Positions 4,541 through 47,380 of a stretch of 64,000 nt of DNA are shown here, one piece after another (positions within the stretch are counted from its first letter, which is position 1; the number at the start of each line of letters is the position of its first letter). The stretch is from Hyphomicrobiaceae bacterium (GTDB lineage: Bacteria; Pseudomonadota; Alphaproteobacteria; Rhizobiales; Hyphomicrobiaceae). The stretch spans positions 1-64,000 of the forward strand of contig JAJFHG010000026.1 of NCBI GenBank assembly GCA_021775735.1, given 5' to 3'. Under the pieces are notes generated by a model. It worked only from the letters and a program-made list of their open reading frames with translations. It did not search any database and had not been told where the DNA came from. Both the position numbers and the translations under genes were made by a program.

Positions 4541-5956
4541 ATGACGGCTGCCACAAGTACTGAGAGGGTTGAACAAGGCCACGCGATGCCCATAAGGCAA
4601 GCGATGGCAAGCAGCGAACTTCGCGCCTGGGCCACTTTGGCCATTGCCTCACTGGCGATCGCTGGCGTGTTTGCTCTTATGCTAGCAGTCTCACGCATTC
4701 CAGGCGTCGAGACGATTATATCCTGGCCGATTGATTTCTTTGCCAAGGGGCTGGTGATCCATGTTGTATTTTCGTTGGTTGTCTGGTTGTTGACCGTATT
4801 CGCTATGCTGGTGTCGCTAGCAACCATTGAGCATGTAGACGGCGACGCGATACGGTTTGCAGTCCTCGGGCGCATTGGCGCACGGTGTGTTGTTTGCGCG
4901 TTTCCGCTTCTTTTCATACCAGCATTTTTAGATGGCAGCGAAGCCTCTCTGAATAACTACATTCCAGTCATTGTTCACCCGTATTACTACATTGGTCTTT
5001 TATTGTTTGCGCTTGGCATTGTTCTCCCAGTTATTCGGATGTTTCTTAATCTGCGATCTGGATGGATGAGATCGGAACCGCTGACGCTGGCAATGACTGC
5101 AGGTGGCGTTTTATATGTTATCGCGCTTTTCTGCATTGCGCTGGCGCTGTCTCAGATTTGGGGGGCCGCGCCGACACGGGCCTTCAATTCGGATCTTTTT
5201 TGGGGTGGCGGACACATATTGCAGTTCTTGAATTGCCTGATGATGGTTACAGGTTGGTTTATTCTGTTTCAAAGCTGCTTTGGTAAAAACGCTCTCGACG
5301 CTGACCTGTTTCGCTTAGCCATTATTCTTATGGTCTTATTTGCACTGCCAGCACCGCTGATTTATCTAGCTTTTGATCCCTATTCGATGGTTCAGCAGGA
5401 AGCCTTCCGCAGATTGCTTTTTGTGCTCGGGTTTCCAACGCTGCTTGTAGCATTATCCGGCGTTTCCGCGGTCCTGAAGACTCGTGCATCAAAGCCGTTG
5501 CCATGGAAGAAACCTGCATTTGTTGCTGTTGCCTTGTCGGTCATCGTCTTCACCGCGGGCGGCGTCATGGGGTTGATGATTAGCGGATCAGATACGCGTA
5601 TACCGGCCCACTATCATGGTGTAATCGCTGCAGTGAATCTTGCCCTTATGGGACTTATTGTTTGCCGCTGCTTGCCAGCAATTGCCAGACCAGTGAAATC
5701 AGCCACTGCATTTCGCCGCCAGCTGCTGCTGTTTGGCGTGGGGCAGTTCGTGGCCTGCATCGGCTTGTTTCTAGCAGGAGGTTACGGTGCGCCGCGAAAG
5801 GTACCTTCCGGTGATGTTGTGCTCTTCGATGGCGCGGTCGTCGGCCTTTACATGAACGGGATTGGGGCCTTTTTTGCCGTCATAGGCGGAGTCCTATTCA
5901 TCGTTGCAGTCGCCCGTGCCCTGAACTCCAGCGCAACACCGACAATCTCTGGTTAG
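4541..5956 (+). CDS. Heme-copper oxidase subunit I paralog lacking the CuB His pair
   Basis: This 471-aa protein has about 12 transmembrane helices. By eye it aligns with the type-B-like catalytic subunit at 9912: VHPYYYIGLLLFALG matches its ADPNFYLGIILFAVG, and IPAHYHGV matches VPGHFHAT. The low-spin and high-spin heme ligands seem retained (H74, H357, H359) and one CuB His is present (H225 in FWGGGHILQFLN). The His-His pair of the seventh helix, which completes CuB, reads Ile274-Tyr275 (the LIYLAF stretch). A heme-binding, catalytically changed or non-catalytic paralog is therefore likely. It follows DUF420 by 24 bases. It is not NnrS by sequence pattern. Its function is unknown. Confidence 0.7.
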   Translation: MTAATSTERVEQGHAMPIRQAMASSELRAWATLAIASLAIAGVFALMLAVSRIPGVETIISWPIDFFAKGLVIHVVFSLVVWLLTVFAMLVSLATIEHVDGDAIRFAVLGRIGARCVVCAFPLLFIPAFLDGSEASLNNYIPVIVHPYYYIGLLLFALGIVLPVIRMFLNLRSGWMRSEPLTLAMTAGGVLYVIALFCIALALSQIWGAAPTRAFNSDLFWGGGHILQFLNCLMMVTGWFILFQSCFGKNALDADLFRLAIILMVLFALPAPLIYLAFDPYSMVQQEAFRRLLFVLGFPTLLVALSGVSAVLKTRASKPLPWKKPAFVAVALSVIVFTAGGVMGLMISGSDTRIPAHYHGVIAAVNLALMGLIVCRCLPAIARPVKSATAFRRQLLLFGVGQFVACIGLFLAGGYGAPRKVPSGDVVLFDGAVVGLYMNGIGAFFAVIGGVLFIVAVARALNSSATPTISG

Positions 5957-6941: not shown

Positions 6942-7532
6942 ATGAACAGTAGTCAAAGCCGTTTTCTGGCAGTTATTGCAGACGTAGATAAAGTCAATTC
7001 AGAAGATCCTCGTGTCGAAGTCGTCAATGGACAGCGTGTGAGCAAAGAGCAGCTCTATTCACGACGCATGACGGAATGTCTTGGCAAGTTATATCCATCG
7101 GCTTCAGAGACGCTCAAAATTGCGGCGCGTGCTCAACATATTCGCAGGTGGTCAATACCGCGCGACGAATACCCGGCGGGTCGATCTGGTTATAACGCTT
7201 GGAGGCTAGCGTGTCGCAAACTCCATGCTTCGTTGACCGCAGATATTATGTCTAAGCACGGTTACTCAGATCTGGCGATACGGCAAGTGGGTAGATTGAT
7301 TGCAAAGAAAGATCTTAAATCAGACGCTGATAGCCAACGGCTTGAGAATGTCGTCGGGGTCGTTTTTGTTGAATACTACCTAGGGGAGTTCAGTAAAAAA
7401 CACGACCAGGAGAAACTCATCAGCATTCTAAAAAAGACAACACGTAAAATGAGCGAGGATGGATTGCAGGCTGTGAGAGCATTAGAGTTGTCTCCATCGC
7501 TCGACGAGCTCTTAAAAGAAACGCTGTCCTAA
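6942..7532 (+). CDS. DUF4202 family protein
   Basis: This 196-aa soluble protein matches the DUF4202 pattern: NSEDPR near residue 18, a KEQLYSRRMTECL segment, AARAQHIRRWSIPRDEYPAG (about 63-82), an acidic FVEYYL stretch and KHDQEKLISILKKT. The conserved His, Arg and Asp residues suggest an HD-domain-like metal fold, but no activity is established for the family as far as I know. It sits alone between two Crp/Fnr regulators. A role in nitrogen oxide or oxygen physiology is only context-based. Confidence 0.75.
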   Translation: MNSSQSRFLAVIADVDKVNSEDPRVEVVNGQRVSKEQLYSRRMTECLGKLYPSASETLKIAARAQHIRRWSIPRDEYPAGRSGYNAWRLACRKLHASLTADIMSKHGYSDLAIRQVGRLIAKKDLKSDADSQRLENVVGVVFVEYYLGEFSKKHDQEKLISILKKTTRKMSEDGLQAVRALELSPSLDELLKETLS

Positions 7533-8780: not shown

Positions 8781-9146
8781 AAAAGATTGATGCGTGTAGA
8801 GCTTAGGTTGTCTCACGGGCATTCTCCGTCGGCGAAGGTCAGCCTTCGATCGTGAAACCCGGCCCTCGATAGTGATGTGCCCGAACCGCCGTGCAGGACG
8901 CATTTAAGCGGCAAATACTAACTTTCAGCATCAGTTATTAGTCGAGGCGAGCAACGGAGCTTGCCATGCATCACGTATCAAGTCGTTGATCGCAGCAATC
9001 GACCATGCCAATTGGGTCACTCCCTACCTGTTGCGACAGTTATCACCGATGTGTAGCTGGCTTGACTTTCGTTAAGTGCAAAGCACGACAAGTCACGCAT
9101 CATGGGGTCAACGCAATGGTTTTCACTAGGGCAGGGAGACGCGGCT
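8781..9146. other. Promoter region of the NOR-like operon
   Basis: This non-coding stretch separates the DNR-type gene from the first subunit gene. It contains a CGAAGG-TCAG-CCTTCG hairpin (8833-8848), perhaps a weak terminator, and the DNR-like palindrome at 9062-9075. A TTGATCGCAGCAATC stretch near 8992 is only a poor FNR match. No gene is seen. Confidence 0.6.
9062..9075 (+). promoter_or_regulatory. DNR/FNR-like box TTGAC-TTTC-GTTAA
   Basis: The 5-4-5 inverted repeat TTGAC (9062-9066), spacer TTTC, GTTAA (9071-9075) lies 71 bases before the first gene of the NOR-like operon. Its right arm and spacing are shared with the box before nirS. The spacing is that of Crp/Fnr family sites. The DNR-type protein encoded just upstream is the most likely binder. 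Confidence 0.6.
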
Positions 9147-9329
9147 ATGACTGATGCCACTGAGCAAGCGGATGATGTGCCGACGCCTGAGCGCAGCTTA
9201 CGAATTCCGGTGATGCAACGTGTTCTCGACAATCCGTTCTTGCTGCTCTTCATAGGCGTTACCGTTCCAACAGTTTTTTATATTCTGTGGGGTTTGATTG
9301 AGCTTACTCAGATACCGATCGCCAACTAG
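9147..9329 (+). CDS. Small single-helix subunit of the CuA NOR-like oxidoreductase
   Basis: The 60-aa protein starts at ATG 9147, with an AGGGAGA ribosome site; an in-frame ATG at 9102 adds 15 poorly supported residues. It has a hydrophilic N-terminus, then LRIPVMQRVLDNPFLLLFIG and one transmembrane helix (about 32-54). This is the form of the small subunit (IIa-like) found in B-type heme-copper enzymes. It is followed after 12 bases by the CuA subunit gene. A structural role in the complex is inferred from size, topology and position. Confidence 0.65.
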   Translation: MTDATEQADDVPTPERSLRIPVMQRVLDNPFLLLFIGVTVPTVFYILWGLIELTQIPIAN

Positions 9330-9341
9330 GGGGCAACAATC

Positions 9342-9896
9342 ATGGCAATACATCCTCCGGAAGAGCGCATTTGGTGGAATCAGAAAGTTGGAAAAGACGA
9401 ACTTATTTGGATCGTGATTGCGTTCCTATGGGGCGTCATTATGTTTTCGATGATGATCTACTGGCATGTTGTTGGAAAGCAGAACCTTTCCACCACAGCA
9501 TACAGGATTGATCCCGCGGCATTCGAGGAGAAGACCGAGGCGTTTGCTGATCAATTCAAAGTTCGTGAAGAAGGTGACACCGGGATCCCTGTTGTGCGAC
9601 CGCCTGCCGGTGGTGACGTCTACATGCTGGCGCGGCTTTGGCAATTCTGGCCTGTGCTTGAGTTGGAAAAAGGTGAGAGCTACCAACTCCACTTGTCGTC
9701 AATGGACTATCAGCACGGCTTTTCTTTACAGCCAGTGAATATCAATATTCAGGTTCACCCTTTAATAGAGCATGTGCTCACGGTGACACCTACGGAAACC
9801 GGAACCTTCAGCGTTGTTTGCAACGAGTTTTGCGGCATCGGCCATCACACTATGATTGGCCGAATTCATGTCGTTGAGAAGGGTACACAACGTTAA
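9342..9896 (+). CDS. CuA-containing subunit II of a B-type heme-copper enzyme (NOR-like)
   Basis: The 184-aa protein has one N-terminal transmembrane helix (about 22-44) and a periplasmic cupredoxin domain with all CuA ligands: H125 and C160-x-E162-x-C164-x3-H168-x2-M171. One helix and short length are typical of B-type (ba3-like) subunit II rather than the A-type coxB at 1390. An AGGGGG ribosome site precedes the ATG. CuA would accept electrons from a soluble donor and pass them to the catalytic subunit at 9912. In CuA-type NO reductases (described from Bacillus azotoformans) this replaces the NorC cytochrome c. Confidence 0.85.
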   Translation: MAIHPPEERIWWNQKVGKDELIWIVIAFLWGVIMFSMMIYWHVVGKQNLSTTAYRIDPAAFEEKTEAFADQFKVREEGDTGIPVVRPPAGGDVYMLARLWQFWPVLELEKGESYQLHLSSMDYQHGFSLQPVNINIQVHPLIEHVLTVTPTETGTFSVVCNEFCGIGHHTMIGRIHVVEKGTQR

Positions 9897-9911
9897 CGAG
9901 GGGGCGTAGCA

Positions 9912-11648
9912 ATGGCTATTGCAGAAGCTGAAACACAAATCATTGGTGGGATCGCGGCCAAGTTCCGTACCTGTCCTGCTTCCGGTCTAAAAATTGATCT
10001 TGCTGCTGAGAGGCTCATCAAAGCCAATGCAGTCGCCTCCATCGTGTTTCTGGCCATTGGTGGGCTGTTTGGTTTGTTGGTGGCTCTAACGCGCTGGCAG
10101 ACGGTACACATATTGCCAGCAGACATGTTCTACCTCGCTCTGACCGCGCACGGTCTCGATGTACTGCTCGTTTGGATTATTTTCTTCGAAATGGCGGTGC
10201 TCTATTTTTGTTCTGCCGTTCTTTTGAATTGTCGGTTGGCGACGCCCAAACTTGGTTGGGTTGCTTTCGTCCTGATGATCGCTGGTGCCGTGCTCGCAAA
10301 TGTTGCGGTGCTGCAAGGTAATTCGAGTGTTATGTTCACGAGCTATGTGCCGATGAAAGCCGACCCGAATTTCTATTTGGGCATCATCTTGTTTGCAGTC
10401 GGCGCTCTCATTGGCTGCTTTATGTTCCTTGGTACATTGGTCATCGCAAAAGATGAAAAAACCTATGAAGGGTCAATACCGTTGGTCACGTTCGGTGCGT
10501 TGACCGCATGCATCATCGCAATTTTTTCGATTGCAGCAGGTGCGATTATCTTGCTTCCGACGTGGCTCTGGTCACTCGGCTACATCTCACATATCGACAC
10601 GGTGATGTACAAACTCGTATGGTGGGCGATGGGCCACGGCACGCAGCAGGTCAATGTTGCTGCTCACGTGGCCATTTGGTATGCGGTCGCGGCGATACTC
10701 CTTGGTGCGAAGCCGTTGTCAGAAAAAGTTAGCCGCACCGCGTTTCTACTTTACATCCTGTTTTTGCAACTCGCGAGTGCGCACCATCTGCTTGTTGAGC
10801 CGGGGCTCTCAGAGGAATGGCAGATCTTCAATACGTCCTACGCGATTTACCTCGCCGTCCTCGGTTCGATGATCCACGGCATGACCGTGACGGGTGCAGT
10901 GGAAGCAGCACAGCGTCGCAATGGCTATACGCGTGGGGCGTTTGAATGGCTGCGTAAAGCGCCTTGGGGCAACCCAGCCTTTGCCGGTATGTTCCTTTCA
11001 CTTATAATGTTTGGTTTCCTTGGCGGTATCTCAGGCGTGGTTCTCGGCACTGAACAACTCAACATTATGCTCCACAACACAATCTATGTTCCAGGGCATT
11101 TCCATGCGACCGTGGTGGCTGGAACGACGCTTGCCTTCATGGCGCTCACATATCTCGTTTTGCCTCTCATCTTCCAGAAGCAGGTTGTGTGGCCTAAGCT
11201 TGCCAGGCTCCAGCCTTACATTTTCGCAGTTGGTGTCGCCGGTATATCGTTGTTTATGATGGGAGCTGGGACACTTGGCGTTGCACGCCGTCACTGGGAT
11301 ATCGGTTTCGCTGATGCGCCGATGTCGTTCAGTTACCCTGCTGCGGCGCACTTGATGCTTGCACTCAATGGAATTTTTGCGGTGATCGCCTCCATTGGTG
11401 GCATTCTGTTTGTTCTTATTGCAGTCGGGACGGTGCTTTGGGGTAAGCCAGTTACCGCAGAGAACATCGTTGAGAGTCTGGGACCAATGCCTAAAAAGCA
11501 AGTGACCGACGCTGTCTCAACTTACGGCAATGCGGGAACGTGGCATCTTCCAGGAACCTATATTTTGGTTGCTGTGTTCTTCTTGTCCTTCGTGCTCTAT
11601 TACTTCGTGAATTGGAAGTATCTGTCTGAGATCTGGCCATTGAGCTGA
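9912..11648 (+). CDS. Type-B-like heme-copper catalytic subunit with Gln for the active-site Tyr; probable NO reductase
   Basis: This 578-aa protein has at least 12 transmembrane helices. All six His ligands are present: H80 and H398 (low-spin heme), H396 (high-spin heme), and H242, H291 and H292 (CuB/FeB). The fourth residue after the first CuB His (motif WAMGHGTQQVN) is Gln246. In O2 reductases this place holds the cross-linked Tyr (HPxVY), and in cytochrome c NO reductase NorB it holds the FeB ligand Glu. Loss of Tyr argues against O2 reduction. With NO-linked neighbours, a CuA-type NO reductase is the best reading, though the precise NOR subclass cannot be settled by eye. A GAGGGGG ribosome site precedes the ATG. 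Confidence 0.75.
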   Translation: MAIAEAETQIIGGIAAKFRTCPASGLKIDLAAERLIKANAVASIVFLAIGGLFGLLVALTRWQTVHILPADMFYLALTAHGLDVLLVWIIFFEMAVLYFCSAVLLNCRLATPKLGWVAFVLMIAGAVLANVAVLQGNSSVMFTSYVPMKADPNFYLGIILFAVGALIGCFMFLGTLVIAKDEKTYEGSIPLVTFGALTACIIAIFSIAAGAIILLPTWLWSLGYISHIDTVMYKLVWWAMGHGTQQVNVAAHVAIWYAVAAILLGAKPLSEKVSRTAFLLYILFLQLASAHHLLVEPGLSEEWQIFNTSYAIYLAVLGSMIHGMTVTGAVEAAQRRNGYTRGAFEWLRKAPWGNPAFAGMFLSLIMFGFLGGISGVVLGTEQLNIMLHNTIYVPGHFHATVVAGTTLAFMALTYLVLPLIFQKQVVWPKLARLQPYIFAVGVAGISLFMMGAGTLGVARRHWDIGFADAPMSFSYPAAAHLMLALNGIFAVIASIGGILFVLIAVGTVLWGKPVTAENIVESLGPMPKKQVTDAVSTYGNAGTWHLPGTYILVAVFFLSFVLYYFVNWKYLSEIWPLS

Positions 11649-11708
11649 ACCTCCGGCAGTTAGGCGCAACTATATGCCTTATTAGGTCTGCAGGAGATGA
11701 GGGTCGTA

Positions 11709-12617
11709 ATGACAACGGCGCCTATCGAGAAGACAACAGCCGGCGCGGCAGTCACCGCCAAAGAGTACGTTGGCATCTTCAAGCCACGTATCGCGGTGGC
11801 TATCATGCTGAGCGCCCTTGGTGGGATGGCAATCTCGCCAGGTGTGTTGCCTGGGCCGGAGAACATGTTGATCCTCGCTGCGGCGGTATTCCTTGCCTCC
11901 GGTGCCGCAGGTGCTTTCAACCAGTGGGCCGAGGTTGATCTCGACGCAGCGATGCCGCGCACGGCGGGGCGGCCCTTTGCCAGCGGTCGCTTGCAACCCG
12001 ACATGGCGTGGCTTGCCGGTATTTTGTGCCTTCTTGGTTGTTCAGTTGCAATGGCAGCAGTGGCGGCGAACGGCTGGGCGGCGTTCTATACGTTTCTCGG
12101 CGCTTTTACGTACGCCATCATCTACACGTTATGGCTGAAACGAAAGACGTGGCTCAATATTGTATTTGGCGGCCTTGCGGGTAGCTTTGCTGTCCTGGCT
12201 GGTGCGGCGAGTGTCAACCCGTCTTTGACCCCTGAATCGATCCTATTGGCGATCGTTCTGTTCCTTTGGACGCCGCCCCACTTCTGGAGTCTCGCGATCG
12301 CCGCACATAACGACTATAAAGCAAATAAGGTTCCAATGCTGCCGGTGATTGTTGGGGATCAGGTGGCCGCACGCATTGTTTTGGCACACACAATTGCACT
12401 GGCGCTGATCGCGTTATTGCCCGCACTTTATGGGATGGGTGCAATTTATCTTGCCTTCGCGGTGGTGGGTGGCGTAATTTTTGTGTGTACAAGCGTTCGT
12501 CTGGTGCTTGCACCCACGCGGCGCCGGGCAATTGAGAACTTTCTCGCTTCTCTTGTTCAATTGCTGCTGCTGCTGGCAGGCATCATGCTCGACAGATTCA
12601 TAGCGCAGGGGGCTTAA
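11709..12617 (+). CDS. ctaB: Protoheme IX farnesyltransferase (heme O synthase)
   Basis: This UbiA-superfamily membrane enzyme adds a farnesyl group to heme B to make heme O. The first Asp-rich motif is NQWAEVDLDAAMPRT (about 77-91) and the second region is FLWTPPHFWSLAI with DYKANKVPMLPV. ATG 11709 has GAGGG five bases upstream; ATG 11697 is in frame but its ribosome site would touch the start. The 302-aa length is normal. A heme O synthase inside the NOR-like operon suggests this enzyme uses a farnesylated heme, or that heme supply is coregulated. ctaA lies far away at 59.5 kb. The stop overlaps the next ATG (TAATG). Confidence 0.88.
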   Translation: MTTAPIEKTTAGAAVTAKEYVGIFKPRIAVAIMLSALGGMAISPGVLPGPENMLILAAAVFLASGAAGAFNQWAEVDLDAAMPRTAGRPFASGRLQPDMAWLAGILCLLGCSVAMAAVAANGWAAFYTFLGAFTYAIIYTLWLKRKTWLNIVFGGLAGSFAVLAGAASVNPSLTPESILLAIVLFLWTPPHFWSLAIAAHNDYKANKVPMLPVIVGDQVAARIVLAHTIALALIALLPALYGMGAIYLAFAVVGGVIFVCTSVRLVLAPTRRRAIENFLASLVQLLLLLAGIMLDRFIAQGA

Positions 12618-13429
12618 TGCATACCCTTGTGGCCTTTTTGATCAGCGTTAGCGTCGTTGTGATAGGCAACCCTTGCAGTGCAGAAGCCCCGCTAAGCGAG
12701 AAACAGCGTGAATTGGTAGAGCTCTCGGAGGACGCGAAAGGCCGGGCGTTACCAAACATAAGTCTTACCGACGTCGATGGTAACGCTATTCTCTTGTCAA
12801 GCTACAAAGGCAGGCCGCTGCTCGTAACACTTGTCTACACTGGTTGTATTGATGTCTGCCCAACGCTCATTGAAAATCTTCACCCAGCAGTCGAAGCGGC
12901 GAGTGCTGCACTCGGTGAAGATAGTTTCTCGGTCATCACGGTCGGGTTCGACATTCAACAGGACACGCCGAAAAAACTAAAGGCGTTTGCTCAGGCGCGT
13001 GGTGTAAGCATGCCGAACTGGAAGTTCCTGTCTGCCGATTCAGATAGCCTCGATGCCTTGGCGCGTGCTGTCGGATTTGGCTTTTACAGTCGACCTGGCG
13101 GCTTCGATCACTTCTCCCAAGTGAGCCTGGTTAATTCCAACGGGCGTTTGCATGGGCAAGTTTATGGAGCTGTTTTTAGTCCACCGGTTATTGTTGAGCC
13201 GCTCAAAAAGTTAGTATTTGGTGTTGATGCGCCGTTGAAGTCCTTTGACGACATCATCAATCGATTCAAATTCTTTTGTACCGTCTATGATCCGCGCGCC
13301 GAACGTTATTACTTCAACTATTCGTTGTTTGTCGGTTTGGGGATCGGTTTTGCTTGTCTTTGTCTAATTGCCTTTGCAATTGTGCGTGAGTGGCGCCGGG
13401 CCAGCGAGAGCGAGGCCGGGCACCCATAA
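12617..13429 (+). CDS. Second SCO1/SenC family copper chaperone
   Basis: The 270-aa protein has a signal peptide (about 1-22), a thioredoxin-like fold with C77-I-D-V-C81 and the SCO His in GGFDHFSQV (H165), then a C-terminal helix (about 232-255) with a charged tail. Like the SCO at 552 it has a C-terminal anchor. Its place between heme O synthase and the cytochrome b fusion, overlapping both by TAATG junctions, suggests it metallates the CuA subunit encoded at 9342. The two SCO genes may serve one enzyme each. Confidence 0.88.
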   Translation: MHTLVAFLISVSVVVIGNPCSAEAPLSEKQRELVELSEDAKGRALPNISLTDVDGNAILLSSYKGRPLLVTLVYTGCIDVCPTLIENLHPAVEAASAALGEDSFSVITVGFDIQQDTPKKLKAFAQARGVSMPNWKFLSADSDSLDALARAVGFGFYSRPGGFDHFSQVSLVNSNGRLHGQVYGAVFSPPVIVEPLKKLVFGVDAPLKSFDDIINRFKFFCTVYDPRAERYYFNYSLFVGLGIGFACLCLIAFAIVREWRRASESEAGHP

Positions 13430-15003
13430 TGACCGCCGTCCGTTCGATCCTCTGTTTTTTCTTTGACGTGTTAGAAAGCAGCCTTGCGCGCTTTTTTCCG
13501 GCGCAGTGGAATCCGCTTCTCAATCTCGGCGCGCTTGGTTTCTTTTTTTACTGGATTATCGCAGTAAGCGGCGTCTATCTGTTTATCTTTTTTGATACCG
13601 GCGTGCAGGACGCTTATGCGTCAGTTGAATACATGACCAATGATCAGTGGTACGCCGCCGGTGTCATGCGCAGCCTGCACCGTTATGCATCGGATGGATT
13701 GGTTGTTGTGATGTTTCTCCATTTGTTGCGACAATTTGGGCTGGATCATTACCGTGGCGTGCGTTGGTTTAGCTGGGTGACCGGCGTGGTCATAATAGGC
13801 ATGGTCTATGTTTCTGGGATAACTGGGTATTGGCTTGTTTGGGATAGACTCGCGCAGTACGTGGCGATTGTATCGACGGAGTGGTTGGACCGTCTTAGTT
13901 TGTTCGGCGAGCCGATTGCGCGGAACTTTCTGCACCCCGGCGCGATCGAAGATCGTTTCTTTACTTTGATGGTTTTTATTCACATTGCTGTTCCGCTGAT
14001 TCTGTTGATCTTTCTCTGGATCCATCTGCAACGTGTCACCAGGCCACGGATTAATCCGCCACGCGGATTGGCGGCCGGTGTTTTTGCTTCGATGCTTGTG
14101 TTGTCCCTCGTTCATCCAGCTGTCAGTCAGGGGCCGGCAAATCTTGCACAAGTCCCTGAGTCACTCGGATTGGATTGGTTTTATCTTCCGTTGTTCCCAC
14201 TATTGGAACGCATGCCGACGGCGGTCACCTGGGGAGGGGCGGCGATTCTGACACTTCTATTTGTTGCCATTCCCTGGTTGCCACCGATGTGCCGCTTACA
14301 ACCCGCAACTGTCGATCTAGATAACTGCAACGGATGCATTCGCTGCTTTAACGATTGCCCTTATGATGCAATTACGATGGTTGAGCGTACGGATGGGCTC
14401 CCTTTTGAGAGACAGCCTATTGTCGACCCGTCGTTGTGCACATCATGTGGCATTTGTGCGGGTTCCTGCCCGACATCAATGCCCTTTCGTGTTGGTTCGA
14501 AATTATCTGCGGGTATTGATCTTCCAGATGCTTCAATGGCAGAGTTGCGTACCTCGTTACATGCCGCTGCCGCGCATCTCAAAGGGGATCGCAGAGTCAT
14601 CATTTTTGGATGTGAACCCTGCCTGCCACAACTCTTAGTCACCAATGAAACAGTTGCGACGGTTCCAGTGCGCTGTATCGGCCAGCTACCGCCAGCGTTT
14701 ATTGACTATGCGCTTACGAAAGGCTTTGCGGATTGTATTGTCGTGGCTGGGTGCGCAGAAAATAGCTGCTATTATCGCTTCGGCGTCCAATGGACTAATG
14801 GTCGGCTGGGGCGTACCCGAGATCCGTATCTGCGCAAACGTGTGTCTGACGACCAGGTAAGGGTAATTTGGGCTGGTCGGCATGGACGACGTAACCTACA
14901 ACACTTGCTCTTGAAGATTGATGCTGACCTTGAAGAGCAAAAGAACAGAAAAGCTCGAAAGAACGACCGTGTAGTTGCAGAGCGGAGCAAGTCCCATGCT
15001 TAG
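13429..15003 (+). CDS. Cytochrome b / 2x[4Fe-4S] ferredoxin / MvhD-like fusion protein
   Basis: This 524-aa protein joins three modules. Residues about 1-290 form a membrane cytochrome b-like domain with both heme pairs, H84-x13-H98 and H185-x13-H199, plus further helices. Residues 300-347 hold two ferredoxin motifs (C300-x2-C-x2-C-x3-C310 and C337-x2-C-x2-C-x3-C347). Residues about 390-500 resemble the MvhD/hydrogenase delta subunit, with C395-x2-C398, C416 and C442-x4-C447 for a [2Fe-2S] cluster. I infer a membrane electron conduit between quinone and Fe-S partners, probably feeding the NOR-like enzyme or a cytoplasmic reductase. The start overlaps the SCO stop. I know no characterised protein with this architecture. 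Confidence 0.75.
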   Translation: MTAVRSILCFFFDVLESSLARFFPAQWNPLLNLGALGFFFYWIIAVSGVYLFIFFDTGVQDAYASVEYMTNDQWYAAGVMRSLHRYASDGLVVVMFLHLLRQFGLDHYRGVRWFSWVTGVVIIGMVYVSGITGYWLVWDRLAQYVAIVSTEWLDRLSLFGEPIARNFLHPGAIEDRFFTLMVFIHIAVPLILLIFLWIHLQRVTRPRINPPRGLAAGVFASMLVLSLVHPAVSQGPANLAQVPESLGLDWFYLPLFPLLERMPTAVTWGGAAILTLLFVAIPWLPPMCRLQPATVDLDNCNGCIRCFNDCPYDAITMVERTDGLPFERQPIVDPSLCTSCGICAGSCPTSMPFRVGSKLSAGIDLPDASMAELRTSLHAAAAHLKGDRRVIIFGCEPCLPQLLVTNETVATVPVRCIGQLPPAFIDYALTKGFADCIVVAGCAENSCYYRFGVQWTNGRLGRTRDPYLRKRVSDDQVRVIWAGRHGRRNLQHLLLKIDADLEEQKNRKARKNDRVVAERSKSHA

Positions 15004-15502
15004 AGCTGCCATGCAATGGGTTGGGCAGGTGATTGTCTATGTTATCCTTTGCGCTGGTGTCGGGGCATTGGCGAGCTGGCCCCATTATCAGCAGATCGAA
15101 CCAAACCAAGCGCAAATCAAACTTAGCCTTGCGCACAGCGGACAGCGGAGCAAGAAGTGCCGCCGCCTGACCCCGCAAGAGATTGCCAAGATGCCGGCCA
15201 ACGAACGCCGGCCAAATACGTGTGCGCGTCAGCGCGTGGCGGTTCGAATCCAACTCCTGGTCGATGGGAACCAACTTTATGACGCCGTTGTTGAGCCGGC
15301 TGGCTTATCCCGCGATGGGCCGGCACGCATCTACGAAAAATTTGTCGTTTCAGCATGCAATCATTCTGTGACGGTTCGACTGAAAGATACGCCAGGATTG
15401 GGCGACTTTGACTATGAGACGACGAAGCAGGTCGCGTTTGCGCCTTATCAAAGTCTCGCCATTGATTTTAGTACTGATAAAGGCGGCTTCGTCTTCTTTT
15501 GA
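14996..15502 (+). CDS. Exported or membrane-anchored protein of unknown function in the NOR-like operon
   Basis: ATG 14996 overlaps the end of the cytochrome b fusion gene by eight bases. The 168-aa product has one N-terminal hydrophobic helix (about 8-27), then a predicted periplasmic domain with Cys residues in KKCRR, NTCAR and VSACNHS and a beta-rich C-terminal half. I recognise no family. Tight coupling suggests a role in assembly of, or electron delivery to, the same complex. Confidence 0.6.
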   Translation: MLRAAMQWVGQVIVYVILCAGVGALASWPHYQQIEPNQAQIKLSLAHSGQRSKKCRRLTPQEIAKMPANERRPNTCARQRVAVRIQLLVDGNQLYDAVVEPAGLSRDGPARIYEKFVVSACNHSVTVRLKDTPGLGDFDYETTKQVAFAPYQSLAIDFSTDKGGFVFF

Positions 15503-15536
15503 GGAGGAGAGAAGAATTTTGAGGAGGAGAGAAGAA
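15497..15536 (+). repeat. Perfect 20-bp tandem duplication carrying the ribosome site
   Basis: TTTTGAGGAGGAGAGAAGAA occurs twice in a row (15497-15516 and 15517-15536). The first copy contains the stop of the upstream gene, and the second supplies the AGGAGGAGAG ribosome site of the hemerythrin gene, whose ATG uses its last base. The duplication gives two strong Shine-Dalgarno sequences in series. Confidence 0.85.
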
Positions 15537-15934
15537 TGGCACTTATAGATTGGCGCAAGGAATTCGAAACAGGTGTCGAGGAGGTTGATCATGAGCACAA
15601 GGAGCTTATTGATCTACTGAATACGCTCCATGAAAAACTTGGTACAGATGTCTCCCGAGAGGAGGTGCGCGGGTTCTTAGGTGATGTCTTTACAAATATT
15701 TCGTCGCACTTTGCGCTCGAAGAAACAGTGATGAGAAAACACAAGTATGACGAGTATCAAGCACATAAAAGTGAGCATGAACAACTTTTGGATGATCTTA
15801 GAGACATCATGGACGCCTTCGAGGCGAATGAGGCTTTAGACTATAAGTCGACCCTGGCAGATGCTGTGCGGGACTGGTTCGTAAACCACTTCAAGACAAA
15901 GGATGCGCGTCTGCATCGATTGTTAGGGGTGTAA
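15536..15934 (+). CDS. Bacteriohemerythrin
   Basis: This 132-aa single-domain hemerythrin has the di-iron ligand pattern: VDHEHKEL (about 17-24), HFALEE (about 57-62), HKSEHEQ (about 77-83) and HFKTKDAR (about 117-124). Such proteins bind O2 and in some bacteria bind or detoxify NO. The last ligand motif is HxxxxD, as expected. It sits between the NOR-like operon and nirS, directly after a doubled ribosome site, so high expression under denitrifying conditions is plausible. NO or O2 scavenging around the reductases is inferred. Confidence 0.9.
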   Translation: MALIDWRKEFETGVEEVDHEHKELIDLLNTLHEKLGTDVSREEVRGFLGDVFTNISSHFALEETVMRKHKYDEYQAHKSEHEQLLDDLRDIMDAFEANEALDYKSTLADAVRDWFVNHFKTKDARLHRLLGV

Positions 15935-16022: not shown

Positions 16023-17915
<1,893 letters not shown>

Positions 17916-17925
17916 CATCAGGGGT

Positions 17926-17955
17926 TCAGGACGCGATCATTCGGTCGCGTCCTGA
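17926..17955 (+). terminator. Hairpin between nirS and nirE
   Basis: TCAGGACGCGA (17926-17936) pairs perfectly with TCGCGTCCTGA (17945-17955) around an 8-base loop, followed by GCTTTATTGT. The weak T-run suggests partial termination or 3' end stabilisation. That would make nirS transcript more abundant than the heme d1 biosynthesis genes. Confidence 0.7.
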
Positions 17956-17993
17956 GCTTTATTGTAAGTTCTCTAAAGACCTGTGAGGTCACC

Positions 17994-18791
17994 ATGAACA
18001 AACCAGGACATGTTTTTCTGGTTGGAGCAGGACCTGGCGATCCTGATTTGCTTACAGTCAAGGCAGTGCGAACCCTCGCGCAGGCTGATGTCGTTGTTCA
18101 CGATCGCTTGGTGTCCGATGAAGTACTTGAACTCGTCCCGAAGACGACGCGACTCATCTCTGTCGGCAAGTCGCCGAACTGCCACCCCATCCCACAATCA
18201 GAGATCAATCGCATCCTGGTTCACGAAGCTAGGCAAGGTCACACTGTTGCGAGACTAAAAGGTGGTGATCCCTTTATCTTCGGACGTGGGTCAGAGGAAG
18301 CCATGGAGCTTGCTGCAGCAGGGCTGAAAGTTGAGGTGATCCCTGGCATTACAGCGGCGCAGGGGTGTTCAGCCGTTACAGGTGTTCCACTTACCCATCG
18401 AGGACTTGCCACAGGTGTGCGCTTTGTTACGGGGCATTGTCGTGGGGACTTGCCGCTTGAACTGGATTGGGATGGCCTAGCGGATCGCAATACGACGCTG
18501 GTCATCTACATGGGGAGTGCAAATATCGCTCAAATTGCGGATCAGTTGGCATCATCTGGTTTGTCGCAGAAGACGCCTGTTCTGGCCATTAACAACGGGA
18601 CGACACCACGCGAGAAGCGCCTCATATCTGACCTTGCATCGATTGCGTTGGATATCAGACGTGCGGAGTTTTCTGGTCCCGTACTTTTCATCGTTGGTCA
18701 TGTTGTTAGCCTCATTGAGCAAACTCGTCCGCAACGCCTTGCCAAAGCCATTGAGATGCTGGCAACCGATCGGATCTATGTTCATGGCTAG
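17994..18791 (+). CDS. nirE: Uroporphyrinogen-III C-methyltransferase
   Basis: This SUMT enzyme methylates uroporphyrinogen III at C2 and C7 to precorrin-2, the first dedicated step to heme d1. The 265-aa protein shows the family motifs: LVGAGPGDPDLLT near the N-terminus, ARLKGGDPFIFGRGSEE (about 85-101) and VIPGITAAQGCSAV (about 113-126). There is no fused CysG-like domain. Position inside the nir cluster identifies it as NirE rather than a cobalamin or siroheme enzyme. It overlaps nirC by eight bases. Confidence 0.93.
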   Translation: MNKPGHVFLVGAGPGDPDLLTVKAVRTLAQADVVVHDRLVSDEVLELVPKTTRLISVGKSPNCHPIPQSEINRILVHEARQGHTVARLKGGDPFIFGRGSEEAMELAAAGLKVEVIPGITAAQGCSAVTGVPLTHRGLATGVRFVTGHCRGDLPLELDWDGLADRNTTLVIYMGSANIAQIADQLASSGLSQKTPVLAINNGTTPREKRLISDLASIALDIRRAEFSGPVLFIVGHVVSLIEQTRPQRLAKAIEMLATDRIYVHG

Positions 18792-19110
18792 AAGAGAACT
18801 CCTTGCACTGCTAGCTGCAATGAGTGCAGGTGCAGCGGACTGTCTCGGCGGAACAATCAACCCTGAGCGGGCCCGCGAACTGGAAAGATTGGTGCTCCAC
18901 GATTGTGGCTCGTGTCATGGTATGACTCTTAAAGGTGGTCTGGGGCCAGATATACGCGCACCAACCTTGGCTGGCCGCTTGCCTCAATCTTTGGCCAAGA
19001 CGATCCTTGATGGCGTTCCTGGCACCGCAATGCCCGCATGGCGGCCGTTGTTAACGGAGCGCGAAGCGCGTTGGATCGCCGACTACCTATTAGACGGAGA
19101 TCGGCAATGA
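18784..19110 (+). CDS. nirC: Periplasmic c-type cytochrome, NirC-like
   Basis: The 108-aa product starts at ATG 18784, inside the end of nirE. It has an N-terminal export-like segment and one heme site, C41-G-S-C44-H45, with a Met ligand candidate in GTAMPAW. The pattern fits NirC, a small cytochrome proposed to donate electrons to NirS or take part in heme d1 maturation. No separate nirM-like cytochrome c551 is seen in the cluster. Junctions with both neighbours overlap, indicating coupled translation. Confidence 0.8.
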   Translation: MARRELLALLAAMSAGAADCLGGTINPERARELERLVLHDCGSCHGMTLKGGLGPDIRAPTLAGRLPQSLAKTILDGVPGTAMPAWRPLLTEREARWIADYLLDGDRQ

Positions 19111-20297
19111 TGCGGTGTGGCGCACTATTCGCAAGTATGATCTGTTTGTTCTTGTGGTCAGGGCTTGGCGTGGCGCATCCCGGCCAGGAGCCCCTCCGGG
19201 GAACAGGAAACCTGGGGTTAGTCATTGAACGATCAACGGCCTCTGTGTTGATTATCGATACAACCAAACGCGCGTCTGTCGCCCGGGTCGAAGGTTTGGG
19301 CGATCTTTCACACGCGTCTGTTGTGTTTTCATCAGATCAGAGATTTGCGTTTGTGTTCGGTCGTGATGGTGGGTTGTCAAAAATTGATCTCCTTTTGGGC
19401 AAGGTGACCAAGCGCATCGTTCAGGCTGGAAATTCAATAGGCGGCGCTATTTCTGACGACGGGACGTTGGTCGCCTGCTCGAATTATGAACCAGGTGGTG
19501 TTCGTGTTTTTGATTCTAAAACGCTCAAGATGGTGGCCGACATCCCAGCGAAGTGGACGAACGGAGTTTCAAAGACGATCGGGCTCGTAGATGCTCCAGG
19601 GCGACGCTTTGTGTTTTCGCTATGGGATGCTGGTGAGACGTGGATTGCTGACTTTTCGTCCGGTGCAACGCCTGTTCTCACAAAGATCAAGGGTGTTGGA
19701 AAGCAACCCTACGATGGTTTGATTACATCCGACGGGCGTTACTACATGGTGGGCCTGTTCGGTGAAGACGGGATGTCCGTATTTGATCTTTGGCAAAAGC
19801 CTATCTCACCGCGCAGGATTTTATCCGGCTATGGACGCGGTGAAACGCGACTACCGGTCTATAAGATGCCCCATCTTGAGGGCTGGGCACTTGCTGGAGA
19901 CCGGTTTGTCTTGCCGGCCGTCGGTCGGTCCGAAATTCTGTGGGTCGACAAGCGGTCGTTAGAGGAAGTGGGCCGGACAAAAGTTCACGGCCAGCCAGTG
20001 TTTGCCGTCGCGCGACCCGATGGTCGTCATGTATGGGTGAACTTCGCCCACCCCAACAACGACACGATCCAGGTGATTGACACGCTGACTGCAGCGGTTG
20101 TGCATCAGTTGAAGCCAGGACCTGCGGTCCTGCATATGGAGTTTCTGCCGCGCGGAAATGAAGTTTGGGTTTCCGTTCGAGATTCAAACCTTGTTCAAGT
20201 TTACAATACGCGTGATTTCACAAAGCTTGCAGAAATACCGGCAAAAACGCCAAGCGGGATTTTTCTCGCATCTCGAGCCAACCGAACGGGGCTTTGA
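19107..20297 (+). CDS. nirF: Heme d1 biosynthesis protein NirF
   Basis: NirF is a d1-propeller protein of the late, periplasmic part of heme d1 synthesis. The 396-aa product starts at the ATGA overlap with nirC, has a signal peptide (about 1-25, ending VAHP) and beta-propeller repeats such as SDDGTLVACSNYEPGGVRVF and TSDGRYYMVGLFGEDG. It lacks a CXXCH motif, which distinguishes it from NirS and NirN. It precedes nirDL with a 3-base gap. Confidence 0.92.
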   Translation: MMRCGALFASMICLFLWSGLGVAHPGQEPLRGTGNLGLVIERSTASVLIIDTTKRASVARVEGLGDLSHASVVFSSDQRFAFVFGRDGGLSKIDLLLGKVTKRIVQAGNSIGGAISDDGTLVACSNYEPGGVRVFDSKTLKMVADIPAKWTNGVSKTIGLVDAPGRRFVFSLWDAGETWIADFSSGATPVLTKIKGVGKQPYDGLITSDGRYYMVGLFGEDGMSVFDLWQKPISPRRILSGYGRGETRLPVYKMPHLEGWALAGDRFVLPAVGRSEILWVDKRSLEEVGRTKVHGQPVFAVARPDGRHVWVNFAHPNNDTIQVIDTLTAAVVHQLKPGPAVLHMEFLPRGNEVWVSVRDSNLVQVYNTRDFTKLAEIPAKTPSGIFLASRANRTGL

Positions 20298-20299
20298 GC

Positions 20300-21304
20300 A
20301 TGGAACAAAGTGTGCGTGATCCCATCGACATGCGGCTGCTGAGCGACTGGCAGCGTGAACTGCCCTTGGTTTCACGTCCATTTTCGGTATTGGCACGCGA
20401 CTTAGGGATATCTGAATCCGATGTCATTACACGCCTGAAGTCCCTTACCAAATTGGGTGTCGTTTCACGTGTTGGAGGCGTCATCCGTCCCAACATCATT
20501 GGCGCCAGCACACTTGCTGCAATTGCTGTCCCGGCTCTCCAAGTTGATGAGGCTGCCTCTGTTATCGGTAATGAAGCAGGTGTGAATCATTTGTATTTGC
20601 GCGAGAACAAACTGAACCTTTGGTTTGTTGCCACAGGCCCTGACCGCGATCACGTTTCGTCGACACTCGCGCGCATCGAAAGGCGGGTGGGCGCCCGCGT
20701 CTTTGACCTCAACTTGGAGCAGTCCTACCATATTGACCTCGGGTTTCCTCTCGACAAGCGCGGCACCAAAGTATGCGAAGCCCTCGATGCGCATGAGAAA
20801 AGCGCTGCATTTGAACTCAAGGATGGAGATTCCCACCTTGTGCAGACGTTGACGCGGGGTTTGCAACTCGAAGAACAACCCTTCCAGTCGATTGCGACCA
20901 AGCTTGGCCGATCCGAGGCAGACGTACTTTTGCGCTTAGAGCAACTTTGCGCAGCCAAGATTATCAAGCGTATTGGTGTCATCGTGCGCCATCGCGCTCT
21001 CGGGTGGAGATCCAATGCGATGGTGGTGTGGGACGTTGCCGAAGACGTTGTCGATCGCGCGGGTACTGCTATGGCGACGTTCGCGGGTATAACCTTGTGC
21101 TACCGGCGCAGACGTGTTGAGCCCGATTGGCCGTATAATCTTTACTGTATGGTGCATGCAAAGGCACGGTCTGAGGCCTTGGACATTATTGCGGCAGCTA
21201 CTGAAACCACAGGGTTGAATACATGCCCGCGTCGAATCCTCTTCAGCACCCGTTGCTTCAAGCAGACGGGAGCAATGCTGATTTCTTCCATGGAGGCAGC
21301 ATGA
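20300..21304 (+). CDS. nirDL: Siroheme decarboxylase NirD-NirL fusion
   Basis: The 334-aa protein contains two AsnC/Lrp-like halves. Each begins with a winged-helix (ARDLGISESDVITRLKSL near 34, ATKLGRSEADVLLRLEQL near 195) followed by a RAM-like domain, the second containing RRRVEPDWPYNLYCMVH. It corresponds to NirD plus NirL in one chain, as in other NirDL fusions. With NirG and NirH it decarboxylates siroheme to didecarboxysiroheme. The ATG at 20300 follows the nirF stop directly; a TTG at 20294 is also in frame. Confidence 0.92.
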   Translation: MEQSVRDPIDMRLLSDWQRELPLVSRPFSVLARDLGISESDVITRLKSLTKLGVVSRVGGVIRPNIIGASTLAAIAVPALQVDEAASVIGNEAGVNHLYLRENKLNLWFVATGPDRDHVSSTLARIERRVGARVFDLNLEQSYHIDLGFPLDKRGTKVCEALDAHEKSAAFELKDGDSHLVQTLTRGLQLEEQPFQSIATKLGRSEADVLLRLEQLCAAKIIKRIGVIVRHRALGWRSNAMVVWDVAEDVVDRAGTAMATFAGITLCYRRRRVEPDWPYNLYCMVHAKARSEALDIIAAATETTGLNTCPRRILFSTRCFKQTGAMLISSMEAA

Positions 21305-21780
21305 CAGGCCGCAATTCTGCGCTTTCAAAGATCAATATGGATAAGCACGACGCTGCACTCATCAACCTTCTTCAGGACGGGTTGCCACTTGTGGCGCGAC
21401 CGTTTGCGGACGTCGGTGAAAAGCTCGGCATAAGTGAGCGTAACGTCGTTGAACGCGTTGATCGACTTCGAAGATCTGGAATTTTTACGCGCTTTGGACC
21501 GTTTTTTGACGCAAGCGCAATGGGAGGTGCATTCTGCCTGTGCGCGATGGCCGTGCCGCAAGACCATTTTGACGAAGTCGCCAATTTGGTCAACGCACAC
21601 ATAGAAGTCGCGCACAATTACGAACGTGCACATCGTTTGAACATGTGGTTCGTCCTGGCAACACAGACCAATGCGAGGATTGATGAAGTGGTACGTGACA
21701 TAGAACGAGAAACCGGCGTGAAAGTTCTATGTTTCCCCAAGCTTGAGGAGTTTTTTATTGGCTTCAAGGTGGCAGCATGA
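21301..21780 (+). CDS. nirG: Siroheme decarboxylase subunit NirG
   Basis: This 159-aa AsnC/Lrp-like protein starts at the ATGA overlap with nirDL. The helix-turn-helix-like part includes GEKLGISERNVVERVDRL, and the C-terminal half has EVAHNYERAHRLNMWFVLAT, a siroheme decarboxylase signature found in the NirD/NirG type chain. It is expected to pair with NirH, whose gene overlaps its stop. Confidence 0.9.
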   Translation: MTGRNSALSKINMDKHDAALINLLQDGLPLVARPFADVGEKLGISERNVVERVDRLRRSGIFTRFGPFFDASAMGGAFCLCAMAVPQDHFDEVANLVNAHIEVAHNYERAHRLNMWFVLATQTNARIDEVVRDIERETGVKVLCFPKLEEFFIGFKVAA

Positions 21781-22268
21781 TGACTCTCGACCCTCTCGAT
21801 CTGCAATTGATTGAAGCCACGCAAGCTGGGCTGCCAATCGTTGAAGCACCATATGAGAAGATTGCTAGTGAGATCGGCATCAGTGAAGCAGATGTGATTA
21901 ACCGGCTCGGTCGACTGATAGAGTCGGGTGTGATCCGGCGGATTGGTGCTGCACCAAATCACTACGCCTTGGGGATGACGTCTAATGGCATGACGGTTTG
22001 GGATATTGAGGATAAATCCGCCAGTTCCAAAGGCGCAGAAGTCGGTGCGCTTGACTACGTCAGCCACTGCTACCTTCGACCACGGGCATTGCCGGACTGG
22101 CCCTACAATTTGTTCGCGATGGTCCACGGATCCTCCCGCGATGAAGTTGAGGGCAAGCGTGCGGCCATCGCCAAACTTTTAGGGCCCTCGTGTCGCTCAA
22201 ACGACATCCTTTATTCGAAGCGCATTCTAAAAAAAACGGGGCTTCGACTGTCCCGCAAGGGGGTCTAG
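21777..22268 (+). CDS. nirH: Siroheme decarboxylase subunit NirH
   Basis: The 163-aa AsnC/Lrp-like protein starts at ATG 21777 (an ATGATG pair overlapping the nirG stop). It carries [20 protein letters not shown] and [18 protein letters not shown], the NirL/NirH type signature, and [13 protein letters not shown], where active-site basic residues lie in related enzymes. It forms the decarboxylase with NirG and NirDL. nirJ begins four bases after the stop. Confidence 0.9.
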
Positions 22269-22272
22269 GTTC

Positions 22273-23496
22273 ATGTTCCGACTGTCCCATTACATGAAGC
22301 AGTTGATTAATCCATCGCCAGTGCGCGCCCGCAAGGGGCGGGTCCGACCTGTGGTGATTTGGAATTTGACACGGCGCTGTAATCTTAAATGCCGTCACTG
22401 TTATGCGGTGGCGGCAGATCACGACTTCCCAGGTGAGTTGACCACACGGGAAGCGTATCAAGTTCTCGACGACCTGGCCGCCTATAAGATCCCTGCTTTG
22501 ATCCTGTCCGGCGGCGAACCGCTTTCAAGGGCTGACACCCTAGAACTTGCGCATCGATCGAAGTCCTATGGGCTTTACACCGCGTTATCAACGAACGGTA
22601 CACCGATTGTTGGTGATATAGCTGACAAAGTTGCAGACATTGGCTTCGACTACGTTGGTATCAGTCTTGATGGTATCGGTAAGACAAACGACTGGTTCCG
22701 CGGTAAGGCTGGTGCGTTTGACGAAGCTCTTGCAGGCGTGCGGGCGTGCAAAGAGCGCGGTATTAAAGTGGGCCTACGGTTCACATTGACAAGCGACAAT
22801 GCCGCAGAGCTACCTGATCTGTTGTCGTTGGCCGAAAGTGAAGGTGTAGAGAAGTTTTACCTTTCCCATCTTGTCTACGCCGGCCGGGGAAATAAACATC
22901 GCGGCGACGATACCGACTGGTCGGTGACACGGTCTGCGGTCGACATGCTTATTGATCGCGCCTGGGTGGCCGCCAAAAGAGGCGAACCGTTAGAAATTGT
23001 TACGGGCAACAACGATGCGGATGCAGTGGCGTTTTTGCGCTGGGCGTCAAGTGTTGCTTCACCTGAGCGCGTTGCACATGTGCGCAGGCATTTGGAGGCC
23101 TGGGGTGGAAACTCGTCGGGGTTGGGCGTTGCCAATATTGATACGCAAGGCATTGTTCATCCCGACACATATTGGTCTGATTATGAGATTGATAGTGTGC
23201 GCAAACGGCCGTTCAGAGAGATCTGGGATGATGTATCCGATCCAATGCTGGCGGCGTTGCGAACCCGCCCACGGCCATTGAAGGGCCGCTGCGGTGCATG
23301 CGCCTACAAGTCAGTATGTGGTGGCAACACGCGGATTCGCGCACTGCAACTGACGGGAGATCCTTGGGCTGCCGACCCTGCCTGCTATTTGGGTGATGCC
23401 GAGATTGGGCTTGAGGCTAAGAGTGAAGACTCGGAGCGACTTGTCGTGACACCGTTTAGAGGCAAGAGCCATGATCCTGCGCATCGTTTCAGCTAG
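22273..23496 (+). CDS. nirJ: Radical SAM enzyme NirJ
   Basis: NirJ converts didecarboxysiroheme by replacing propionates with oxo groups on the way to heme d1. The 407-aa protein has the radical-SAM cluster motif C36-x3-C40-x2-C43 ([12 protein letters not shown]), an SGGEPL motif and a SPASM-like C-terminal Cys region ([15 protein letters not shown], then DPACY). A C-terminal extension of about 30 residues is polar. The stop overlaps nirN by 26 bases. Confidence 0.94.
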
Positions 23497-25024
23497 TCTG
23501 GCTATCGGATTGACATGGGCAACGTGTGCGGGGGCAGATGTTGCCGGTACCTATGCTCGATACTGTGCGCAATGCCATGGCGTTGACCGTCTCGGTGGAA
23601 CAGGTCCTGCCCTGATCCCCGAAACTTTAAAAAGAATGCGTGGTCCAAAAGTCGAGCGAGTCATTTCCCGTGGGCGAGATGCAACGCAAATGCCAGCTTT
23701 TGCAGGTACGTTATCACCAGATGACATTGCGTCTCTGGCGAATTTCCTCAAAACACCGCTCGCCAAAATTCCACGATGGACCGTCGAAGATATTCGCGGA
23801 AGCAAGCGCTTGAACGATGGCTACAAGCCGGTTGAAAAGCCACGTTTTGAATCAGATCCTCTCAATCTCTTTTTGGTTGTTGAAACTGGCGATCACTATG
23901 TCAGCGTTCTGGATGGAGATAACTTTAAGACGCTCGACAGGTTTGCAACCCCGTTTGCAGTGCATGGTGGGCCAAAATTTACACCAGACGGCCGTTATGT
24001 CTTCATCATGTCACGTGACGGTTGGGTCCAAAAATATGATCTTTGGAGCCTTGCTGAAGTCGGTCGCATTCGTGCGGGGATCAATTCGCGCAATATTGCG
24101 ATTTCAAAAGACGGCCGCTGGCTCGCCGTTGCCAACTATTTGCCAAATATGCTGACAATCTTAGCCACAAATGACCTCTCGGTGGCTCGGACATTTGAGA
24201 TTTCCGATGCCAACGGCGCAGCTTCGCGCGTGTCTGCTGTCTATCAAGCGCCGCCACGCGACAGTTTTATTCTTGCGTTGAAAGACGTGCCGGAGATCTG
24301 GGAAATTGCCACGGACCCCGATGCAGACCCTGTCTTTGAAGGTTATGTGCATAGCCATGAACAAGGTATGGTTGAAGGTCTTGCATCATCACAGGGGCTG
24401 TTTGCGCGTCGTCGTATCCGTCTGTCAGAACCAATTGATGATTTTTTCTTTGATCCACAATACACCAACCTTGTTGGTGCGGCACGTGACGGAGCGCATG
24501 CCGTAGTTGTTAATCTGATTGTTGGTCGGGAGATTGCTCAACTTCCGTTGGCTGGGTTGCCTCACCTTGGATCGGGGATCAGCTGGTTACGAAATGGTCG
24601 CCGTGTTATGGCGACACCACACCTTAAAGTTGGCAAGCTCAGCGTTATTGATGTTACCGATTGGTCTATCGTCGAAACGATCAAGACCGGTGGTCCTGGC
24701 TTCTTTTTGCGTAGCCATGACAAAACACCCTTCATGTGGGCCGATGTATTCTTCGGGCCCAATAAAGATCAAGTGCACGTTATCGACAAGCAGACACTTG
24801 AGATCAAAAAAACACTTCGACCGGTTCCTGGCGCAACCGTCGCTCATGTGGAATTTGACCGCTATGGCCGCTACGCACTGGTATCGGTCTGGGAGAACGA
24901 TGGAGCGATCATTGTTTATGATGCACAAACACTAAAAGAAGTAAGACGATTGCCGATGCGTAAACCATCGGGGAAGTATAATGTCTGGAATAAAATCACG
25001 TTTTCCGACGGGACGAGCCACTAA
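23471..25024 (+). CDS. nirN: NirN, cytochrome cd1-like heme d1 maturation protein
   Basis: NirN dehydrogenates dihydro-heme d1 and can hand heme d1 to NirS in the periplasm. The 517-aa protein has a signal peptide (1-22), one heme c site (C32-A-Q-C35-H36) with Met in ATQMPAF, and a d1-type propeller with [17 protein letters not shown] and [18 protein letters not shown]. It is shorter than NirS and lacks the FLHDGG active-site pattern. This is the last gene of the nir cluster; the next gene is 212 bases away. Confidence 0.9.
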
Positions 25025-47104: not shown

Positions 47105-47321
47105 GTAGGTCTCCCCGTTTCCGAGTTTCGCCAAGGTTGAGCTTGGCGAAACCTTGATGGCATAGCGTTATTCTCAAACTTACGTTGCGACAAGCTCCCA
47201 CAGCAAGTTTGTTCATCATGGTGCCATTTGGATCTGGTTGAATTGTTAACTTACTCCATCAGCAGTTCAGTTTTTCAGACCTTGTCTCTGATTTGCAATA
47301 CAACCCGTTGCGGAATGGAAG

Positions 47322-47356
47322 AAAAACGGCGCCGAGCTGTCGCTCCGCGCCGTTTT
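47322..47356 (-). terminator. Terminator of paralog 2
   Basis: AAAACGGCGC (47323-47332) pairs with GCGCCGTTTT (47347-47356). Read on the minus strand the stem is followed by a short T-run. It lies 25-60 bases after the stop of the gene at 47381. Confidence 0.8.
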
Positions 47357-47380
47357 GTCCATCTGGAATATTCAGTTTGT

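Follow-up and report, generated by a model that had tools for sequence, protein, structure and literature searches.

What does a membrane cytochrome b fused to a ferredoxin and an MvhD domain do beside the genes of a putative NO reductase? The question is raised by the window, the whole stretch of 64,000 nucleotides of Hyphomicrobiaceae DNA analysed here, in which a single ORF encodes such a fusion. Its product, the cytochrome b-ferredoxin-MvhD protein, is called CBFM below. The genes around it resemble those of eNOR, a family of N2O-producing NO reductases that is counted in environmental surveys. We describe the protein and its cluster, the genomes in which both recur and a sibling with a different cytoplasmic half, and weigh the roles that CBFM may have.

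CBFM and its gene cluster in the window

The genes of the cluster stand in the order eNOR2, eNOR1, CtaB, SCO, CBFM, partner gene and hemerythrin (Table 1). No gap between them exceeds 48 bases and there are three overlaps, the SCO and CBFM genes sharing one base; nirS and further nir genes follow (16149-25024). Replacement of the active-site Tyr by Gln is the hallmark of eNOR (PMC8756737). Gln occupies this position, in an HGTQQ/HSSQQ motif, in 71 of 71 subunit I homologues, that of the window included, so that the co-occurrence of the fusion with a Tyr-less heme-copper subunit, which the initial annotation had proposed to check, is borne out. The heme and CuB His are conserved in the same 71 homologues, and in subunit II the CuA ligands H125, C160, C164, H168 and M171 are invariant, also in 71 homologues. 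With both the hallmark and a CuA-bearing subunit II present, the genes at 9342-11648 most likely encode eNOR and would act in NO reduction. No FNR-type site was found 5' of the operon, at 8781-9341, with up to 2 mismatches allowed.

Table 1. Features of the putative eNOR cluster and of the CBFM protein, in window coordinates
Feature	Position	Strand	Evidence
Putative eNOR subunit II (CuA cupredoxin subunit)	9342..9896	+	CoxB-like; NCBIfam TIGR02866, E 1.6e-12, under its cut-off
Putative eNOR subunit I (heme-copper; Gln replaces active-site Tyr)	9912..11648	+	COX1 Pfam, E 2.7e-63
CtaB, heme o synthase	11697..12617	+	TIGR01473, above cut-off
SCO-family copper chaperone	12617..13429	+	PF02630, E 2.1e-13; C77, C81, H165 conserved
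Cytochrome b-ferredoxin-MvhD protein (CBFM)	13429..15003	+	ORF, Pfam, conservation, AlphaFold model
CBFM cytochrome b part, residues 13-288	13465..14292	+	Fold match, invariant His, charge distribution
CBFM two [4Fe-4S] motifs, residues 293-352: CNGCIRCFNDCP, CTSCGICAGSCP	14305..14484	+	Fer4 matches, 8 Cys invariant
CBFM MvhD/FlpD domain, residues 389-502	14593..14934	+	PF02662, MvhD profile match, Cys conservation
Partner protein (one N-terminal membrane helix, periplasmic beta-sandwich)	14999..15502	+	Next gene after CBFM; model
Hemerythrin-like protein	15536..15934	+	PF01814, E 8.4e-13; diiron ligands conserved

CBFM is a protein of 524 residues encoded by a single unbroken ORF (ATG at 13429, stop ending at 15003). 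Pfam matches above cut-off cover residues 24-201 (Cytochrome_B, E 2.5e-19), 293-350 (Fer4-type) and 406-502 (FlpD/MvhD, E 1.9e-10, 41.2 bits against a curated cut-off of 22.3), and a profile search matched the C-terminal part to the MvhD chains 9sw2_D and 5odc_D. Among 89 CBFM homologues, the heme ligands H84, H98, H185 and H199, which form two H-x13-H pairs, and all eight ferredoxin Cys are invariant. So are C395, C416 and C442 of the MvhD part; C447 is found in 86 of the 89, and most lack C398, the latter Cys of the CxxC. The probable [2Fe-2S] site consists of C395, C416, C442 and C447. The ORF, the Pfam matches and the homologues together confirm that two heme-ligand pairs, two [4Fe-4S] motifs and an MvhD Cys set reside in one chain, as first annotated. 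An artefact in which a frameshift or sequencing error had joined separate genes is excluded, since the full-length fusion recurs in 80 loci from independent assemblies, including the isolate genomes of Roseovarius amoyensis GCL-8 and Bradyrhizobium sp. AUGA SZCCT0283. Nor is the fusion one of a kind: in one genome collection, a relative of CBFM is encoded by 493 candidate stretches, and Table A3 in the appendix to a 2022 paper already lists RME88945.1, a single protein that combines cytochrome b6, ferredoxin-type and FlpD domains, among cytochrome c (C1) domain homolog proteins, but comments neither on its function nor on a link to eNOR (PMC8756737).

In fold comparisons, residues 13-288 of the AlphaFold model (pLDDT 84.5) resembled bc-complex cytochrome b in its entirety (Z 23.8, rmsd 3.4, 260 residues aligned), with six predicted membrane helices. 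The assignment to the cytochrome b type therefore stands, but its restriction to the N-terminal b6 half does not. The likeness to cytochrome b of bc1/b6f (PF00033) takes in the two H-x13-H pairs, a four-helix core with two bis-His hemes, the heme-propionate Arg positions (R81, R101) and a b6-like WD motif, whereas CBFM has a cytoplasmic Fe-S extension and no Rieske or cytochrome c1/f gene occurs among the annotated window neighbours or in the conserved locus set. Its cytoplasmic half recalls MvhD/FlpD subunits and the C-terminus of HdrA2-type proteins, a ferredoxin pair being followed by an MvhD domain with four Cys retained, but is fused to a membrane cytochrome b and has no recognisable HdrA partner. 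The whole genome gave no HdrA2 match over cut-off, the other matches being short pieces, mostly ferredoxin-like, which argues against CBFM as the MvhD partner of an HdrA complex.

The predicted hemes are both bis-His ligated, by H84/H185 towards the periplasmic side and by H98/H199 towards the cytoplasmic side, and the trend in positive charge would place the Fe-S half in the cytoplasm. Positions conserved at 95% or more account for 26 of 91 in the periplasmic-side loops against 3 of 43 in the cytoplasmic-side loops. Among the residues kept on the periplasmic side are several that resemble the quinone pocket of cytochrome b (WD139, Q143 and DWFY at 249-252), but the canonical PEWY of the quinol-oxidation site is not, reading LDWF in the window and xDWF across the family. 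No conserved His, Met or Cys able to hold copper was found on the periplasmic side of CBFM in the homologue alignment; conserved residues of this potential occur only in the partner protein. In the latter (model pLDDT 95.8), H46, C54, R70, C75, R77 and R79 occur without exception among 57 members. The partner family has no convincing Pfam or PDB relative, and its fold search returned weak, scattered beta-sandwich matches.

Some further features of the window and the genome can be recorded here. A DUF4202 protein (6942-7532) is encoded 5' of eNOR and has counterparts near the eNOR/nir clusters of several relatives. The product of 4541-5956 is a homologue of heme-copper subunit I that has lost both CuB His of helix VII; in 24 relatives, encoded in or beside eNOR clusters of Burkholderiales-like and some small genomes, these two positions are likewise changed (to Tyr/Leu in most), while the remaining heme-side His are retained. 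Contig C9 of the same genome (L202, 1465-2904) encodes another Tyr-less heme-copper subunit I, in which Asn replaces the Tyr (GHVFIN), as it does in enzymes of the sNOR type. The - strand at 46580-48935 carries a tandem set of three genes whose small products look secreted, abound in Ala/Arg/Lys repeats and have in common a C-terminal C-(K/T)-(K/R)-F-(V/I)-P-A-(V/I)-G motif as well as a Cys close to the C-terminus.

Conservation of the locus and co-occurrence with eNOR

The 80 CBFM loci come mostly from alphaproteobacteria and in part from beta- and gammaproteobacteria, and each count below refers to the loci whose contig reaches far enough. The SCO gene lies directly upstream of CBFM in 74 of 74 loci and the partner gene next after it in 79 of 79. 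Subunit I of eNOR is encoded upstream in all 65 testable loci, subunit II in 61 of 62, CtaB in 63 of 71 and hemerythrin in 69 of 72. The eNOR operon of proteobacteria has CBFM as one of its conserved genes. Two tandem CBFM copies occur in the loci L147, L151, L152 and L156, from small genomes (1.2-1.9 Mb), and the heme and ferredoxin motifs are intact in those tandem copies that we read.

Across 398 Pseudomonadota genomes, CBFM was present in 34, eNOR in 30 and both in 29 (Fisher p ~1e-37, relatedness ignored; 14/15 by genus). In the sole eNOR genome without CBFM (G166) the contig stops just past SCO, and a genome-wide search also found none; the five genomes with CBFM but without eNOR are represented by fragmented or incomplete assemblies. 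Among 28 mapped genomes, CBFM and eNOR are on separate contigs in 11 and on the same contig but more than 15 kb apart in 2, and in the unlinked loci that we read (G142, G182, G231) the partner gene still adjoins CBFM. Because unlinked genomes still have both, the association is more than synteny, and the case for mere hitch-hiking is weakened. The link to NO reduction put forward in the initial annotation is thus real and strong; a wide occurrence of the gene without NO reductase neighbours was looked for and not found.

The accompanying link to nitrite reduction did not hold, as CBFM tracks eNOR and not NirS. It is absent from 22 of the 24 NirS genomes that lack eNOR, the remaining two belonging to genera in which other members have eNOR and one of them being only 82% complete, and the five eNOR genomes in which NirS was not detected all have CBFM. 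In Thermus, Thermomicrobium and Haloarcula, the plasmid neighbourhoods of eNOR include neither CBFM nor SCO, so that CBFM is not a universal subunit of eNOR but a lineage-specific accessory.

A sibling with an NAD(P)H reductase half

In one genome (G459; L148, 8640-10631), a protein of 664 residues encoded beside SCO has a cytochrome b of the CBFM type (52% identity) and carries Fer2, FAD_binding_6 and NAD_binding_1 domains where CBFM has its ferredoxin-MvhD half. This cytochrome b-[2Fe-2S]-FAD-NAD(P)H reductase architecture, apparently undescribed in eNOR clusters (L148 and L170-L192) before, was found in 20 genomes, which appear to be those of Burkholderiales and relatives. Where the locus was long enough to tell, the sibling was almost always part of the eNOR cluster or adjacent to it; G634 has its eNOR operon ~19 kb distant, on the contig that carries the sibling. 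The single-contig genome G620 has no CBFM, and there the sibling takes its place between SCO and the partner gene, while L177 has two partner genes, one adjoining each cytochrome b protein. Some genomes keep CBFM and the NAD(P)H version together, or have two CBFM copies. Common to both versions are the heme ligands and, on the periplasmic side, W138, D139, Q143, E151, D154, D249 and W250. The cytoplasmic half is interchangeable, being either ferredoxin-MvhD or Fer2-FAD-NAD(P)H.

The simplest reading of a cytoplasmic NAD(P)H-FAD-[2Fe-2S] module is as an electron input, from which we infer that CBFM, too, probably works outward, from the cytoplasm to the periplasmic face. The MvhD [2Fe-2S] and the two [4Fe-4S] clusters would accept electrons from a soluble cytoplasmic donor, and these would then cross CBFM via heme bH and heme bL. 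The earlier suggestion that the fusion joins a cytoplasmic Fe-S input to the membrane cytochrome b is consistent with such a path.

Possible roles of CBFM

We tentatively favour a role for CBFM as an accessory dedicated to proteobacterial eNOR, in which outward electron flow would serve the reductive maturation of the enzyme. CBFM, the partner protein and SCO would together provide the electrons with which the copper centres of eNOR are built or repaired, as is proposed for CcoG and CrpH with other heme-copper oxidases, the reductive step being Cu(II) to Cu(I), or the reduction of thiols. That the electrons go to a maturation route rather than to quinone is the least certain element of this scheme. 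We prefer it, firstly, because SCO and the partner are invariable neighbours while CtaB is sometimes missing and, secondly, because the layout of CBFM and its partner recalls that of CcoG/FixG and FixH, in which a membrane [4Fe-4S] protein is paired with a small periplasmic protein. Like CcoG/RdxA/FixG with FixH in cbb3 assembly, CBFM is a membrane protein with two [4Fe-4S] clusters, a small one-helix periplasmic neighbour and copper-handling genes beside it, whereas its sequence and membrane part are unrelated, with heme b instead, and it gave no FixG/Fer4_5 Pfam match at E 0.01. Thirdly, CrpH, a two-heme membrane protein of the PepSY_TM family that supports heme-copper oxidoreductases, is proposed as a periplasmic copper reductase in the portion of its report available to us, which describes no fused cytoplasmic redox domain for it (PMC13038864); the fold of CBFM differs, and CBFM has no PepSY_TM Pfam match. 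Against maturation we count the lack of conserved copper-holding residues on the periplasmic side of CBFM, and the quinone-pocket-like residues, which would fit quinone equally well. In addition, keeping both versions or two CBFM copies exceeds the need of a simple assembly factor, and Thermus, Thermomicrobium and Haloarcula manage their eNOR without CBFM.

A close rival, nearly as likely, is that of respiratory supply: CBFM, or its sibling from NAD(P)H, may send cytoplasmic electrons to a quinone on the periplasmic side or to the CuA of eNOR, which would let cytoplasmic reductant drive NO reduction, for growth or for NO detoxification. The full cytochrome b fold, the conservation of the pocket-like residues in both versions, the two alternative input halves within the same cluster and the tandem copies in several small genomes all speak for such a supply. 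Yet it leaves the invariable SCO neighbour and the periplasmic partner unexplained, other routes already reduce quinone and cytochrome c, and the PEWY motif is not kept.

Flow in the inward sense is unlikely. CBFM would then oxidise quinol on the periplasmic side and pass electrons through the hemes b to the cytoplasmic clusters and, via MvhD, to an acceptor, with eNOR as the high-potential sink. A whole cytochrome b fold with a quinol-oxidation-like pocket would suit this arrangement, and MvhD domains are typical of electron-bifurcating complexes, but the cluster has neither a Rieske nor a cytochrome c1 gene, the genome has no HdrA partner over cut-off, and in the sibling quinol would have to reduce NAD(P)+, a strongly uphill step. 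We consider it very improbable that CBFM and the sibling bifurcate quinol electrons, one to eNOR and the other inward via the hemes b to the cytoplasmic Fe-S clusters as low-potential reductant; were this true, NO respiration would itself drive the making of reducing power in the cytoplasm, with no need for complex I. Service to nitrite reductase or to heme d1 biosynthesis, suggested by the nir genes next door and by the position of CBFM beside nirS in some genomes, can be dismissed as the least probable role on the genome co-occurrence given above.

The open literature that we found describes neither the electron supply nor the assembly of eNOR, and searches of open-access papers, the main eNOR survey (Murali and colleagues) not among them, gave no account of CBFM or the NAD(P)H version alongside eNOR. 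The new result is an apparently dedicated eNOR accessory with interchangeable cytoplasmic halves. As a near-constant companion of eNOR in the sampled proteobacteria, with two input halves and a periplasmic partner, CBFM offers a concrete, testable lead. In genomes, its gene can also flag those eNOR loci of proteobacteria whose annotation would otherwise read oxygen-reducing oxidase.
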